Positions 55,457 through 60,607 of a stretch of 64,000 nt of DNA are shown here, piece after piece. Each line of letters begins with the position of its first letter. Positions within the stretch are counted from its first letter, which is position 1. The notes below the pieces were generated by a model, which was not told where the DNA came from, searched no databases, and was given only the letters and a program-made list of their open reading frames with translations. The stretch lies in NCBI RefSeq assembly GCF_002736205.1, contig NZ_CP024091.1, positions 1,426,001-1,490,000 of the forward strand, given 5' to 3'. The DNA comes from Pedobacter ginsengisoli (lineage in GTDB: Bacteria; Bacteroidota; Bacteroidia; Sphingobacteriales; Sphingobacteriaceae). Made by a program: the position numbers and the translations under genes.

Positions 55457-55834
55457 ATGATCAATCAAAGTGATAATAGGAAGAAGAGTGGACGACCCAA
55501 AGCAACTCAAAAAAAGAATGTTAATATAACAGTGAGCTGTAATATCATTGAAAAGAAACTGATTCAGGATTGCGCCAGAAAAGTGAACACCAGTGTTTCA
55601 GTCTACCTCAGGGAGCTTGGTTTAAAAGGAACAGTCAGGATAAAATTGAAGACCCTTCCTAAAGAGGTTCTTCAATTTACCGGAACACTTTATCACATCG
55701 CTGCCATCCTCAGCCCGATTGCCCGCAAACGCAATTCAGCCGAAGATCTGAACTTGATAGACAGGGTTTTGATCAATCAGGAAATGAGGGCAATTCAACA
55801 GGTGGTAGAAGAAATAAAAGCTTATTTGAAATGA
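55457..55834 (+). CDS. mobC: Mobilization protein MobC-like
   Basis: The chain is like the MobC/relaxosome accessory proteins: basic N-terminus (KKSGRPKATQKKNVNITVSC), a ribbon-helix-helix-like core (IIEKKLIQDCARKVNTSVSVYLRELGLKGTVRI) and a helical C-terminus (FTGTLYHIAAILSPIARKRNS). MobC binds oriT and helps open the nick region for the relaxase. The stop codon overlaps the relaxase start by 4 nt (ATGA), so the two are coupled. Confidence 0.8.
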   Translation: MINQSDNRKKSGRPKATQKKNVNITVSCNIIEKKLIQDCARKVNTSVSVYLRELGLKGTVRIKLKTLPKEVLQFTGTLYHIAAILSPIARKRNSAEDLNLIDRVLINQEMRAIQQVVEEIKAYLK

Positions 55835-56685
55835 TAGGGAAAATATCCACAGGAAGAAATTTTCGGGGTTGCCTTCGCTACCTGCATGAGGGCCGTTTAC
55901 AGGAGAGCGAGGAACTTCAGCTGGAAGAAATGGCAAGAAAACAGGCTGAAGTGATTCATTATAACAAGTGCTTTGGCACTAGGGAACAGGTCGCCAAGCA
56001 ACTGGTAGAAGTGCAGGGTCTTAATCCAAAGCTGTTAAAGCCTGTGCTTCATGCTTCATTTAGCTTTGCCTATGCGGATGCTGCATTGCTGACCAAACAG
56101 CAAAAAGTAGATATCGCCATAGCAATGTCGGAAGAGTTTGGATTTGATCAAAATCAGTTTATCGTCATTACCCATGCGGATACTGTACATGAGCACATCC
56201 ATATTTTGGTGAACCGGGTTGGTTATGATGGTAAGACGGTCAACGATAGCAACAGCTATAAGCGAATGGCGCAATTTTGCCGCGATATGGAAAAGAGGTA
56301 CAAACTGACTCCTGTTTTAAGTCCTAACCGCTTTTTAGCATCCGGGGAGCGGATGGCTATAGGTAAAAGGGTAGACCATAGAAAGGAATTGCTCAAGAAA
56401 ACCTTAGTATGGGCGATCAGCGAATCCGGGACCATCGAGACGGTAAAGATCAGAATGCAAGAACGGGGCTACCACGTACATCTGGGCAGGGGCATCACCT
56501 TCACGGACAAGCAACAAGTAAGGTTCAATGGGAGCCAGGTCGGGTATAGCCTGGCAGATATCAATGCTCAACTTATTCGTCAGCGAAGGATTGCCCAGCA
56601 GGAAAAACAGCAGCAAATGAGATTAAGGGAGCAGACGAAATCAGAAAAATTAACAGGTAAAAAAACTAAAGGGAGATCAATTTAA
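55831..56685 (+). CDS. MobA/VirD2-type relaxase
   Basis: The 284-residue protein has the relaxase features: a Tyr-bearing N-terminus (IGKISTGRNFRGCLRYLHEG), and the metal-binding HUH motif THADTVHEHIHILVNRVG with H-E-H-I-H. The basic C-terminal tail (QRRIAQQEKQQQMRLREQTKSEKL) is usual. It would nick one strand at oriT to start DNA transfer. No coupling protein or type IV secretion genes are visible, so the element would be mobilizable in trans. A membrane-protein gene follows 10 nt downstream. Confidence 0.88.
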   Translation: MIGKISTGRNFRGCLRYLHEGRLQESEELQLEEMARKQAEVIHYNKCFGTREQVAKQLVEVQGLNPKLLKPVLHASFSFAYADAALLTKQQKVDIAIAMSEEFGFDQNQFIVITHADTVHEHIHILVNRVGYDGKTVNDSNSYKRMAQFCRDMEKRYKLTPVLSPNRFLASGERMAIGKRVDHRKELLKKTLVWAISESGTIETVKIRMQERGYHVHLGRGITFTDKQQVRFNGSQVGYSLADINAQLIRQRRIAQQEKQQQMRLREQTKSEKLTGKKTKGRSI

Positions 56686-56695
56686 ATCAATTCTT

Positions 56696-57124
56696 ATGGA
56701 CTTAGATGAAACTTCATTAAAGGAAATTTTGCAAGAGCTGCTGGAGAATGGCAAGACAATGCAAAAAGTAATAGGCGATCTGGAAGAGCACTTGGCAGAA
56801 AATGAAAATCAGCTCAAAACCTTAATCGAGGGTAATAGAGAATTAATCGCCAGTTTTGAGCATAAGTACGAAACGATAGAAGTCAAAGCACCACCAGTAG
56901 ATCTTTCTCAAGTTAATCTCGCCATTATCAAAGGGTTTGTTGGGATTAATCAGGCGATAGAAAAAGGGCCAAAGCCAATCATCAGACAGATCAGGTTTAC
57001 TTTATTTCCGGAACAGGTACGAGCACCTGAATATTATCATGCGATGATGCGGGGGCTGGTCTGGATAATATTGGGATCACTGTTTATGATACTTACTTAC
57101 CTGCTCATCAACAGATGCATTTAA
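56696..57124 (+). CDS. Hypothetical tail-anchored membrane protein
   Basis: The 142-residue protein begins MDLDETSLKEILQELLENGKTMQKVIGDLEEHLAENENQLKTLI, a coiled-coil-like acidic helix. It ends with a single transmembrane helix (LVWIILGSLFMILTYLLINRCI), so it is likely C-terminally anchored. Proteins of this layout sit downstream of relaxases in Bacteroidota mobilizable elements. It is 10 nt from the relaxase gene. No enzymatic role is visible; membrane positioning of the relaxosome is an inference. Confidence 0.6.
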   Translation: MDLDETSLKEILQELLENGKTMQKVIGDLEEHLAENENQLKTLIEGNRELIASFEHKYETIEVKAPPVDLSQVNLAIIKGFVGINQAIEKGPKPIIRQIRFTLFPEQVRAPEYYHAMMRGLVWIILGSLFMILTYLLINRCI

Positions 57125-57381: not shown

Positions 57382-57427
57382 AGCGGGTATATTTCTACAT
57401 TACTCTATAGCTATAGAAGCGGCCTCA
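57382..57427 (-). ncRNA. Diverged copy of the guide-RNA scaffold
   Basis: Ungapped alignment of this 46-nt segment with the 57932 copy matches at about 32 positions, including GAGGC(C/T)GC at the 5' end (minus strand) and CTATAGC/CTACGGC blocks. Several base pairs of the first hairpin are lost (agctat against gcggcc), so it is probably decayed. Found by eye; a covariance search would settle its relation. Confidence 0.4.
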
Positions 57428-57677
57428 ATTACTTTATCTATAATTCAATAATCACATTAACGTAAGCCGGGGGGTGATACCATCGGTTGGATTTTGTGTA
57501 TATGTTTTGACCACCAAGAGATTGGTCGGCAATCTCTTGTTTTAGAATTAGTAATATGTTATTTCGTTTTATTCAAAAATAACAAGCCGCCCATATTGGT
57601 ATATAGTTTAAGCGAAGCCTGCTATTCTATTTCTAATAATACAAGTGAGCCATCGATCGTATCGTCTGGACAGACTT

Positions 57678-57722
57678 AGTGAGTGCATTTTGCCTCACCC
57701 TATGGCTGTAAAAGCAGCCTCA
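57678..57722 (-). ncRNA. Guide-RNA scaffold copy 2 (Cas12f-associated)
   Basis: Read on the minus strand, the segment forms hairpin 1, GGCTGC-TTTT-ACAGCC, and hairpin 2, GTGAG-...-CTCAC with an inner GCA/TGC extension. Compared with the copy at 57932, the hairpin-2 pair A-T replaces G-C on both sides, a compensatory change, and the loop of hairpin 1 varies. It starts about 298 nt past the protein gene's stop codon. The sequence after it (57677 downward) differs entirely from that after the other copy, as expected of a variable guide. Transcript ends are unknown. Confidence 0.65.
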
Positions 57723-57931
57723 TTATTTCTATACAAACAGCCTGTTATTCCGAGGTATTCGCAAAAAGATAAGCCATCCCAGATGACGTATCTCTCAAAC
57801 CAAACCTACCATTCTAGCCCTGATAATATGAGAGGACTGACCTCAGTGTCTTATGTTTAACACCTACCTGACGTAACGGAATTACAATAGAGCATTGTAT
57901 ATTGCTTTCAAAATGAAATGAAAAACAATTC

Positions 57932-57978
57932 AGTGGGTGCAGTATTGCCCCACCCTACGGCTGTACAAGCAGCCTCCA
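57932..57978 (-). ncRNA. Guide-RNA scaffold copy 1 (Cas12f-associated)
   Basis: On the minus strand the order is GGAGGCTGC, loop TTGT, ACAGCC, then GTAGG, then GTGGG-GCAATACTGCA-CCCAC. Hairpin 1 (GGCTGCTTGTACAGCC) is nearly the same as a stem of the Cas12f1 tracrRNA (GGCUGCUUGCAUCAGCC), by memory of that sequence. It begins 42 nt after the stop codon of the Cas12f-like gene on the same strand, the place of omega-RNA or guide RNA in relatives. The sequence that follows (57931 downward) would contain the guide if it abuts the scaffold. Confidence 0.7.
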
Positions 57979-58019: not shown

Positions 58020-59117
58020 TTATTCCACTACCAGTTGAATCCCTGCCCTGTCCGCTTTATACGCAATTTTTTCTTTGAGGCTATAATAACTCCAGTTCTG
58101 CAGCAAGAATGGATCATCCTTGGCGATTTCTTCTTTTAGTTCCTGATTAACCAGGATAAGTGTTGCTGCCTCATGCTTGACACACAGGTCTATCAGCATG
58201 CGGCTATATACATGGAGCTTATAATCAATATACTTTCTTTCCTGATGCTGATAATCTTCCAGACTTTTCTTTTTTCGCTTTTTGCCATGACCACCCCGGT
58301 TAAAGGTAACGGCTTTCTTTACCCGGTAGATCGCTGCTTGTATGGCCAGTCTGCGATGCAGGAACTCTTCCTTGTTGCCAATGGTATGTTCATGGCTGCC
58401 GATTTTAACGGTAACGGGATGCCCAATAGATAAGGAAGCTTCGGCAATGACAGAGGTATCCAAATGATGCTGTTCCTTTTCGGTCTCAATGGCAGCCAGC
58501 AGGTAGATTTTACCCTGATCCAGCTGAATATGACTAGACCGGAGTTTTAGGGTGCCATTTAGTACCCTGTTCAGCATGATCTTTTTATCTGATCTGTCTT
58601 TACCCAGATAGGTTTTGAAGGGAATCTGAAAGAGCCTAAAGCAAAAGTTCCGTCCATCTGGCGCATGACTAAGCTTTGAAATCACTTCAGCCCCGAAAGG
58701 TAAAGGAATATTCTTTTTATAATTCCTCAGTGACTTTTCACCCTTCCAATAGGCCAGCTTTTCTTTGTTGAAAGTGGAAATCAGCGTGTTGTTTAGGTAA
58801 CTTAGCATGTTTGTTGGAATCTGTCCCTTAAAGTGGTTAGATAACAGCCTGTAGGTGGTGTTTTGCCTGGAGGATTTTAAAATTCCGTTCTCTTCTTTCT
58901 TCTGGTCAGCAATTTTAAGCTGGATTTCCTCGGTTAAATAAAAGAAATCTTTAACCTGTTCCTGCACGAAATGATGGCTCATGATCATATTGGCTGCACG
59001 GAAACATATCCGCTGCCAGCTATAGAGCTGATCTTTTGCTGCTTTGATGACTTCCTTGTCCTGGGAGTCAATCAGCAGCTGAATCTTACGGGTTAGGATC
59101 ATGGTCTGTTTTTCCAT
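58020..59117 (-). CDS. Nuclease-dead Cas12f/TnpB-family RNA-guided protein
   Basis: The start ATG at 59117 overlaps the sigma gene stop as TAATG, giving 365 residues. The C-terminal half aligns with the Cas12f/TnpB RuvC region: A227-S228-L-S-I-G-H-P-V-T-V-K-I-G stands where GVDLGI-x-x-P is expected, so the catalytic Asp is Ser228; LILVNQ325-ELK stands where the Glu motif is expected, so the Glu is Gln or shifted; W342 and YKADRAGI follow as in relatives. The chain stops there, lacking the CxxC zinc finger and third RuvC Asp. A basic KKRKKK patch (279-284) remains. Cleavage is unlikely, while RNA-guided DNA binding is plausible. Family resemblance is by eye. Confidence 0.8.
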   Translation of the reverse strand: MEKQTMILTRKIQLLIDSQDKEVIKAAKDQLYSWQRICFRAANMIMSHHFVQEQVKDFFYLTEEIQLKIADQKKEENGILKSSRQNTTYRLLSNHFKGQIPTNMLSYLNNTLISTFNKEKLAYWKGEKSLRNYKKNIPLPFGAEVISKLSHAPDGRNFCFRLFQIPFKTYLGKDRSDKKIMLNRVLNGTLKLRSSHIQLDQGKIYLLAAIETEKEQHHLDTSVIAEASLSIGHPVTVKIGSHEHTIGNKEEFLHRRLAIQAAIYRVKKAVTFNRGGHGKKRKKKSLEDYQHQERKYIDYKLHVYSRMLIDLCVKHEAATLILVNQELKEEIAKDDPFLLQNWSYYSLKEKIAYKADRAGIQLVVE

Positions 59118-59923
59118 TAGTTTTTTAGCCTTTTGATTTTGGTACAAGCCTGTGCAAAGCTTTGCTGAATGTGCTGCTGACTTAAATTTAATTGTCTGGC
59201 GATCTCTTCAAAGCTGTACTGGAGTTCATAGCGCATGTGCAGGATCCTGAACTGCTCTTCGCAGAGGTCACCTTCGAATTTGAACTTGCTGGTTTTTCCC
59301 GTGACCTGCAGCTTTTCTGAACTGGTCAGAATGGACTTTAAGGTTTCCAGCGTTTTTTCTACCGTTCTGGCTACCTGATAGTCAGAGATGCCACCAATAT
59401 GCCAGGCGATGCGCTCATAGTTGAAGGCGTATTTCAGGCAGAGTTTGATAAACAATTGCTGATTTTCGGTGAGGTTGGGAATGACTGCTTCAACTTGCTG
59501 CCATTGCAGCCTCAGGCGCTCATCAAGTTCTTCCTGATAGATGACGGCATCGGGATCCAATTCTTCTTCGGGATCATAACCTCCTATGAATTCCTGGTAG
59601 TTTTCGATTTCATCAAGCCGGAGCATGTTCCGCTGGAAATTGTGACTGGATGTTTTGTAGTAGGCCTTGCAAGCTTGGATGGTAGTTTCAGTCAAGAAGG
59701 TTTCGATGTGGGTTGGGTTGAGGATACTGTTCCTAACTAGCCAAAGACGAAGGAAGGCCTCGCTAACGATGCAGTCTGCGTTGACCTCATCCTTAATGTA
59801 CCGCTGTCTTTTGCGAAATAATGATGGATAGAGGCGATTATAAAAGTACTCCAACCCTTTTTCATCACCCTGGCTAAATTTGTGGAAATAATGGTGTTCA
59901 TTAGTTAGCTTATTGTTTCTCAT
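59117..59923 (-). CDS. ECF-type sigma factor with extra C-terminal HTH, partner of Cas12f-like protein
   Basis: ATG at 59923 is preferred; the longer frame would need TTG at 59968. Of 268 residues, ~13-92 are sigma region 2 (FSQGDEKGLEYFYNRLYPSLF, VSEAFLRLWLVRNSI, FLTETTIQACKAYYK), ~148-197 a region-4-like HTH (LTENQQLFIKLCLKYAFNYERIAWHIGGISDYQVARTVEKTLETLKSIL) and ~219-266 a second region-4-like HTH (EEQFRILHMRYELQYSFEEIARQLNLSQQHIQQSFAQACTKIKRL). Most ECF factors have one region 4 and ~160-200 residues. Its stop overlaps the Cas12f-like start. Together they probably recruit RNA polymerase to guide-defined sites. Confidence 0.82.
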   Translation of the reverse strand: MRNNKLTNEHHYFHKFSQGDEKGLEYFYNRLYPSLFRKRQRYIKDEVNADCIVSEAFLRLWLVRNSILNPTHIETFLTETTIQACKAYYKTSSHNFQRNMLRLDEIENYQEFIGGYDPEEELDPDAVIYQEELDERLRLQWQQVEAVIPNLTENQQLFIKLCLKYAFNYERIAWHIGGISDYQVARTVEKTLETLKSILTSSEKLQVTGKTSKFKFEGDLCEEQFRILHMRYELQYSFEEIARQLNLSQQHIQQSFAQACTKIKRLKN

Positions 59924-59925
59924 AT

Positions 59926-59942
59926 CTCGTATAGTATACGAG
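59926..59942. repeat. 17-bp palindrome in the sigma gene leader
   Basis: CTCGTATAGTATACGAG has two perfect 8-bp arms around a central G. Its end lies 2 bp before the sigma ATG and it falls in the probable 5' leader. It may be an operator or an RNA hairpin that hides the start. A related 13-mer (TCTCGTATCCTAT) recurs at 60061-60073. Confidence 0.6.
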
Positions 59943-59957
59943 TCTGTCTGTAGATCA

Positions 59958-59965: not shown

Positions 59966-59986
59966 CAAGGCGTGAAACCCACTTGC

Positions 59987-60096
59987 CGTCTTAGAGGCCC
60001 TGAGAAGCCTTGGATACGGATAAGCAGGCCCACGCCTATGACGTGAGCACTACACTTACCTCTCGTATCCTATGAAATTCTCAGGTTTCTAAGACG
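59987..60096. repeat. 110-bp imperfect palindrome upstream of the sigma gene
   Basis: The arm 59987-60006 (CGTCTTAGAGGCCCTGAGAA) is repeated inversely at 60078-60096 with three changes and one deletion. Inside it, GGATACG (60011-60017) pairs with CGTATCC (60064-60070). As RNA or DNA this can form a long stem with a central loop of about 45 nt. It has no known counterpart to me; an att/oriT-like site, an operator cluster or a structured RNA are possible. Confidence 0.55.
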
Positions 60097-60286: not shown

Positions 60287-60607
60287 ATGGCTGAATGGAA
60301 AAATGTTAAGGACGAACCCGAAAAAGATCTTTCGTCTGTAGGTGCATTATTCGAAACTGGCAAAATAAAAAGGATGTACGACATTTCTGAGTTATATCCA
60401 ACCAAAATTATAAAGTTGCTCGGAATTAATTCTGAACGGTATTCTATAAAGCTTTCTAATCCAGAAAAATTCACTATTTCCGAAGTTCTTAGATTGGCTT
60501 ATATTTTTAACATTGATCCGAACCTCATTCTGAATGTTATACAACCTGAGGTAGAAAAGCAAATAATTTCTAAGATCGAGTTTCAAAAAAATAGATATAA
60601 ATCTTAA
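60287..60607 (+). CDS. Small HTH-type DNA-binding protein
   Basis: The 106-residue protein begins MAEWKNVKDEPEKDLSSVGALFETGKIKRMYDISELYPTKIIKLLGINSERYSIKLSNPEKFTISEVLRLAYIFNIDPN. This pattern is common in small chromosomal or plasmid proteins of Pedobacter relatives, and the helices around 38-80 have XRE-like spacing (PTKIIKLLGINSERYSIKLSNPEKFTISEVLRLAYIFNID). A transcription factor is likely. It is divergent from the sigma gene and follows an ACGATTA box cluster, probably its own operator. It may be the last island gene. Confidence 0.65.
   Translation: MAEWKNVKDEPEKDLSSVGALFETGKIKRMYDISELYPTKIIKLLGINSERYSIKLSNPEKFTISEVLRLAYIFNIDPNLILNVIQPEVEKQIISKIEFQKNRYKS

Follow-up and report, generated by a model that had tools for sequence, protein, structure and literature searches.

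RNA-guided transcription is a very new field, and as far as was checked, the natural targets of such systems are an open question. A locus of Pedobacter ginsengisoli raises this question for a single genome: which genes could be switched on by a nuclease-dead Cas12f homologue (dCas12f) that is encoded together with an ECF-type sigma factor, and which RNA would lead it there? The locus lies in a window (the whole stretch of 64,000 nucleotides that was analysed) of a genome consisting of one contig of 5,373,360 bases (5.37 Mb). The initial annotation had proposed a candidate RNA-guided transcription system, and the analysis supports this core idea: PDB entry 9n9q, titled 'RNA-guided transcription complex', contains the closest solved relatives of the two proteins, and a predicted guide has sensible targets within the same genome. 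We conclude that the locus, which combines a nuclease-dead Cas12f, an ECF sigma factor and a predicted guide unit, probably switches on a distant SusC-SusD-thioredoxin operon via a guide of 16 nt.

The sigma-dCas12f operon

Both genes are read leftward and overlap at CTAATGG, where the TAA stop codon of the sigma gene and the ATG of the dCas12f gene share one base, as had been annotated for the TAATG junction. The protein lengths in Table 1 are counted from these ATGs; an alternative dCas12f reading of 375 aa starts at an upstream TTG.

Table 1. Features of the locus in window coordinates
Feature	Position	Strand	Basis
Degenerate scaffold unit 3	57395..57426	-	72% to reference repeat
Scaffold unit 2	57670..57723	-	aligned with other units
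Predicted 16-nt guide GCTCTATTGTAATTCC	57878..57893	-	follows repeat end; two genome copies diverge right after; target matches
Unit 1 of the predicted guide-RNA scaffold, with two hairpins and a variable stretch before the end ATACAAT	57894..57978	-	covariation over 27 units; fold z -3.1
Nuclease-dead Cas12f homologue, 365 aa	58020..59117	-	closest solved chain 9n9c_A 'Nuclease-deactivated Cas12f'; predicted fold
ECF-type sigma factor with second C-terminal HTH, 268 aa	59117..59923	-	closest solved chain 9n9q_C 'RpoE'; TIGR02937
Palindrome CTCGTAT..ATACGAG, possible HTH operator	59927..59943	.	sequence; just 5' of sigma ATG
Hairpin 5' of sigma gene, divergent relative of target element	59967..60038	-	fold z -4.1; similarity by eye
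Divergent small gene, 106 aa, where related regions carry a Cro/C1 HTH gene	60287..60607	+	position

Compared with solved chains, dCas12f matches 9n9c_A best (E 3.7e-133, 447 bits; next chain 139 bits), and Foldseek gives about 55% identity to the solved dCas12f. A Cas12f-like fold had been expected and was obtained by structure prediction. The profile searches proposed alongside gave a divided answer: the Cas12f-type models of PADLOC match dCas12f (best 4.8e-49), but the TnpB/Cas12f relation in NCBIfam (NF040570) reaches 38.8 bits, far under the cut-off of 100 for the IS200/IS605 TnpB family, and the Pfam search of dCas12f returned no match. The TnpB family cut-off was exceeded in none of the 15 genomes tested. 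The aspartate of '-GVDLGI-' in active Cas12f chains aligns with Ser228 of '-EASLSI-', in agreement with the RuvC replacement read by eye in the initial annotation, and active chains continue for approximately 50-130 residues beyond the C-terminal end of dCas12f. Because the chain ends early, the zinc ribbon and the third RuvC motif are absent, as had also been claimed, and the protein lacks the intact RuvC active site of a Cas12f nuclease. The second replacement that had been named, Gln325, holds in that the residue is invariant among 30 aligned sequences and located at the second RuvC motif, but which letter has been replaced hinges on a stretch where the alignment has gaps. Many further residues are invariant across these 30 dCas12f relatives.

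For the sigma factor, 9n9q_C is the closest solved chain (E 1.2e-38; 136 bits, 30% identity) and the sole chain at E <=0.001 in a profile search (E 2.4e-51); its TIGR02937 match exceeds the cut-off. The structure model of the sigma factor alone is weak (pTM 0.38), and the identity of the protein is therefore based on the sequence match. In a 283-aa reading, sigma-70 type matches cover residues 39-213, followed by a further region-4 HTH at 235-279. This double HTH had been considered possibly new, but the 9n9q sigma aligns across the same region (query 28-277). Directly 5' of dCas12f, 43 of the 47 loci tested carry a sigma homologue; several of these loci are one place taken from two collections.

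Palindromes similar to the one just 5' of the sigma gene are present in several related regions. The sequence ACTCGTA after the hairpins was considered as a -10 box of the sigma factor, but it is half of a palindrome in many regions, for which an HTH operator would be the better fit. For the divergent small gene, no Pfam match over its cut-off was found, the only hit being BetR at E 0.25. A mobilization module at 55457-57124 of the window, encoded on the strand opposite to the dCas12f operon, comprises a NikA-like protein, a MobA/VirD2-type relaxase and a membrane-type protein. This setting, too, had been thought possibly new; it looks incidental, and by eye no such genes were seen around the second copy of the cassette described below (frames of at least 70 aa, 19.5 kb).

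Predicted guide-RNA units and a second copy of the cassette

The structured repeats that had been noticed just 3' of the Cas12f-like gene turned out to be covarying units of a predicted guide-RNA scaffold, with scaffold-like repeats at 57945-57976, 57690-57721 and 57395-57426, the last one degenerate. In each unit, two hairpins, GGCTG..CAGCC and then GGGTGAG..CTCAC, are followed by a variable stretch that leads to an end like ATACAA[C/T]. The unit was found 118 times in the scanned loci, repeats of the same place counted, and at many loci several units stand in a row. Among 27 units, 8 of 14 base pairs show changes on both sides, thereby supporting both hairpins, and 39 double-change cells were counted versus 11.0 in shuffles; slid versions fail. 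Rfam gave no match at gathering score in the window, and in eight loci only two sub-threshold matches, both away from the hairpins. Long scaffold rows at L006:10115-11700 and L007:5299-7100, some with several repeat-end-plus-guide segments, resemble small CRISPR-like arrays in look.

The Cas12f gene was found in 27 of the 145 Pedobacter genomes searched (E 1e-20), and the guide-carrying cassette occurs twice within the genome of the window. The second dCas12f copy, at 4162526-4163650 and 2.7 Mb away, has 98% protein identity, and dCas12f is an open frame in both copies. The two cassettes are 97.4% identical across 2,069 alignment columns (second copy L003:9751-11796); their homology starts 22 bases upstream of the sigma ATG and extends through the final base of the predicted guide, beyond which they diverge, and the second cassette stands behind a different upstream hairpin. 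A reading of the cassette as a mobile element was considered and not adopted: the homology stops at these two points, and no ends of an element were defined. In the related genome G072, interrupted copies are seen. The guide GCTCTATTGTAATTCC is present in the second copy as well as in L005 and L018, and L020 and L022 carry the variant GCTCTATTGTAAGTCC.

Predicted targets in the same genome

The genome was searched with a 17-letter pattern, allowing up to three mismatches. This search gave 25 places versus 20 for the reversed control, so that most places are chance. Both guide copies are exact matches, and three places have two mismatches, two of which share the identical sequence GGCTCTATTGTAAATCC, consisting of G and then 15 of the 16 guide letters. 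The first of these two sites, at 3238014-3238030, lies 319 bp 5' of a gene for a SusC-type receptor, with SusD and a thioredoxin-like gene next in the operon, and a Cro/C1 HTH gene is located divergently beside it. The other site, at 2225969, precedes a reading frame of 74 aa of no recognised kind. Each site belongs to the 5' arm of a strong hairpin (z -4.1 and -5.2), and both cassette copies, which have the same guide, would act on the same sites.

When the downstream region of the window was compared with four hairpin regions of its own genome, the best match had one mismatch, whereas in 100 shuffles of this region two mismatches were reached once and otherwise at least three. Possible guides of scaffold unit 2 gave no further match within three mismatches to the four regions. 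The hairpin upstream of the window's own sigma gene was also considered as a target of its guides and dismissed: no match within three mismatches was found, and hairpin model R1 does not recover this hairpin at E 0.01. Within this genome, model R1 recovers three hairpins, namely those at both target sites and the one 5' of the second cassette copy.

A conserved hairpin element in Pedobacter

The 21-letter core TATGGGCTCTATTGTAAATCC is present with up to three mismatches in 61 of 145 genomes, at 103 places, some of them inside coding genes, versus 12 for the reversed control (counted from the table). Alignment of 24 hairpins revealed an invariant GTAA. Their stems covary, with 27 double-change cells versus 9.2 in shuffles, although the number of pairs with double changes, five, is no higher than in shuffles. 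The element is found 5' of SusC/thioredoxin genes or sigma-dCas12f operons, and one group with CTGCTG for CTATTG lies mostly 5' of sigma-dCas12f operons, including that of the second copy. By eye, the intergenic region is mirrored, with a leftward half from GAGTCTC that faces the divergent gene and a rightward half that ends in GAGACTC; within a single mirrored region, both halves use CTATTG or CTGCTG. A TAnnTTTG box stands beside 15 of the 24 elements versus 3% of random 64-base windows. The mirrored hairpin element, e.g., at L046:10000-10110 and L044:19890-20000, is without Rfam match in the tested loci and is repeated within and across Pedobacter genomes.

These 24 elements were collected in four ways: the window guide found two, the core sequence of its target 15, a motif 5' of sigma genes four and guide matches three. 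Against them, 68 distinct predicted guides were compared, which had been cut by the repeat-end pattern from a selection of 37 sources, where 76 segments were obtained and then merged; guides without a patterned repeat end are missed in this set, and related guides are non-independent events. On the sense strand, 20 of the 68 guides match at least one element with up to three mismatches, and 48 match none. Guides read on the other strand gave two matches, and 60 sets of shuffled guides, in which the letters but not their order are preserved, gave a mean of 0.67 and a maximum of four. Because three elements had been found through guide matches and two by the window guide, a stricter set was formed by leaving out the elements L023, L061 and L068 and three guides of the window's type; here, 17 of 65 guides match the 21 elements versus 0.47 on average and no more than three in 100 shuffled sets. 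With the four motif-found elements only, 10 of 65 guides match versus 0.1. A G precedes the site in 171 of 173 predicted guide-element pairings, which fall in three main registers.

Nine genomes contain both parts. A guide matches an element of the same genome with up to three mismatches in four of them (G000, G025, G030 and G072), and in all four a matched element lies before a TonB plug-domain receptor gene (SusC-type) with a divergent HTH gene alongside. In the other five (G013, G031, G045, G056 and G123), no guide is within three mismatches of any element used. The elements of this test were hand-picked from the matches of model R1, two of four in the case of G072. For G054, no element is among the R1 matches; near position 1500 of L099, on the minus strand, this genome has the G and all 16 guide letters inside a coding stretch, with the next frame 70 bp on.

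A positive co-occurrence of dCas12f and the element was expected across the genome tables and was not seen. In 11 of the 15 genomes tested that carry class A sites, a search for TnpB/Cas12f gave no match at E 0.001, and the same 11 show no close relative of the sigma factor (best E 1.7e-9) and no scaffold match. Three of these dCas12f-free genomes carry 10, 11 and 15 elements, 15 being the most per genome. Among nine of their elements that were fetched, seven are accompanied by a small gene of another kind, one has none and one was not read. In L121, L130, L134 and L140, a recurrent small protein that starts with MYTPDQFLHKRPSGTK or similar is often encoded behind the elements, and by eye two of these loci also have a longer frame starting with MSEET further on. 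The occurrence of the element in dCas12f-free genomes argues that it is not there only for dCas12f and has another role or regulator. The simplest account would be that the element is a structured promoter-leader under a regulator of its own and that guides have come to be aimed at it.

Proposed mechanism and alternatives

According to the preferred model, the guide RNA would be made and then bound by dCas12f, which would open an R-loop at the target site without cutting. RNA polymerase would then be recruited by the sigma factor on dCas12f, and transcription would start a short distance downstream. In the published dCas12f-sigma system, the target is reportedly preceded by a 5' G, and the start site is said to lie approximately 46 bp away; a start at such a distance would be located in the hairpin's second half. 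Since the site is located in the 5' arm of the hairpin beside the promoter-like box, the guided transcript would probably lack this arm, so that the hairpin would not form. A broader version of the model is tentative and rather doubtful: the dCas12f guide arrays of Pedobacter might read promoter-leader hairpins as addresses, and guided starts in or beyond the hairpin might bypass it, thereby turning SusC/thioredoxin and sigma-dCas12f operons from leader-attenuated to open. The result would be a regulon that is programmed by RNA and subject to feedback; its guides would drift in register, but the G and the element would persist.

The element itself admits a reading in which the RNA-guided system works, but its elements are chiefly controlled otherwise, for example by the divergent HTH protein or RNA attenuation, with guides that fine-tune this control or derive from the elements. 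The abundance of elements in the 11 dCas12f-free genomes and the HTH gene beside many elements speak for such a control; however, guides from several species match in the three main registers and nearly always with the preceding G, and we regard this reading as unlikely. In 15 of the 24 regions, a TAnnTTTG box stands just upstream of the site, which could also mean that bound dCas12f acts as a block: it would stop the promoter-like box by the hairpin, and the sigma factor would not be used to activate there. Excerpts of PMC13418256 present dead TnpB relatives (TldR) as RNA-guided regulators, which would fit a block; the conserved sigma partner, whose closest solved relative is part of a transcription complex, makes it very improbable. 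Finally, the locus could be decaying and no longer work, for which the interrupted copies in G072 and the degenerate unit 3 might be cited, but the open frames and near-identity of dCas12f in both copies and the many invariant residues among its relatives leave this extremely unlikely. We thus favor the preferred model of guided activation. With many guides linked to one structured element, what began as a single case becomes a regulon open to testing, for which the element in dCas12f-free genomes is a natural comparison.

Comparison with known systems

CRISPR-Cas12f nucleases (9nzr, 7wju) share the fold and the logic of a scaffold plus 3' guide with the window locus; in contrast to them, its dCas12f is without the catalytic residue and the C-terminal part and has a sigma partner. 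The use of a dead protein of the TnpB/Cas12f superfamily for RNA-guided gene control is shared with TldR, for which we know of no sigma partner. According to excerpts of PMC13418256, TldR is phage-encoded and regulates flagellin.

The closest solved relatives of both proteins belong to the dCas12f-sigmaE system (PDB 9n9c, 9n9m, 9n9o and 9n9q; release date 2025-12-24 for three of the four). This system shares with the window locus the dCas12f length of 365 aa, the same truncation, the extra C-terminal HTH of the sigma factor and, as reported for that system, a 5' G at the predicted targets. Judged by sequence, the locus is a Pedobacter representative of this known dCas12f-sigma lineage, the lineage that the initial annotation had named as a possible relative. 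By title, none of the literature matches listed deals with a dCas12f-sigma system. The window locus differs from dCas12f-sigmaE in its Pedobacter host, its tandem scaffold units and perhaps its predicted targets in structured elements. In this single genome, a predicted guide, two sites and a SusC operon can be named, and these, together with the genus-wide statistical link between guides and elements, are what is added here to the known system.
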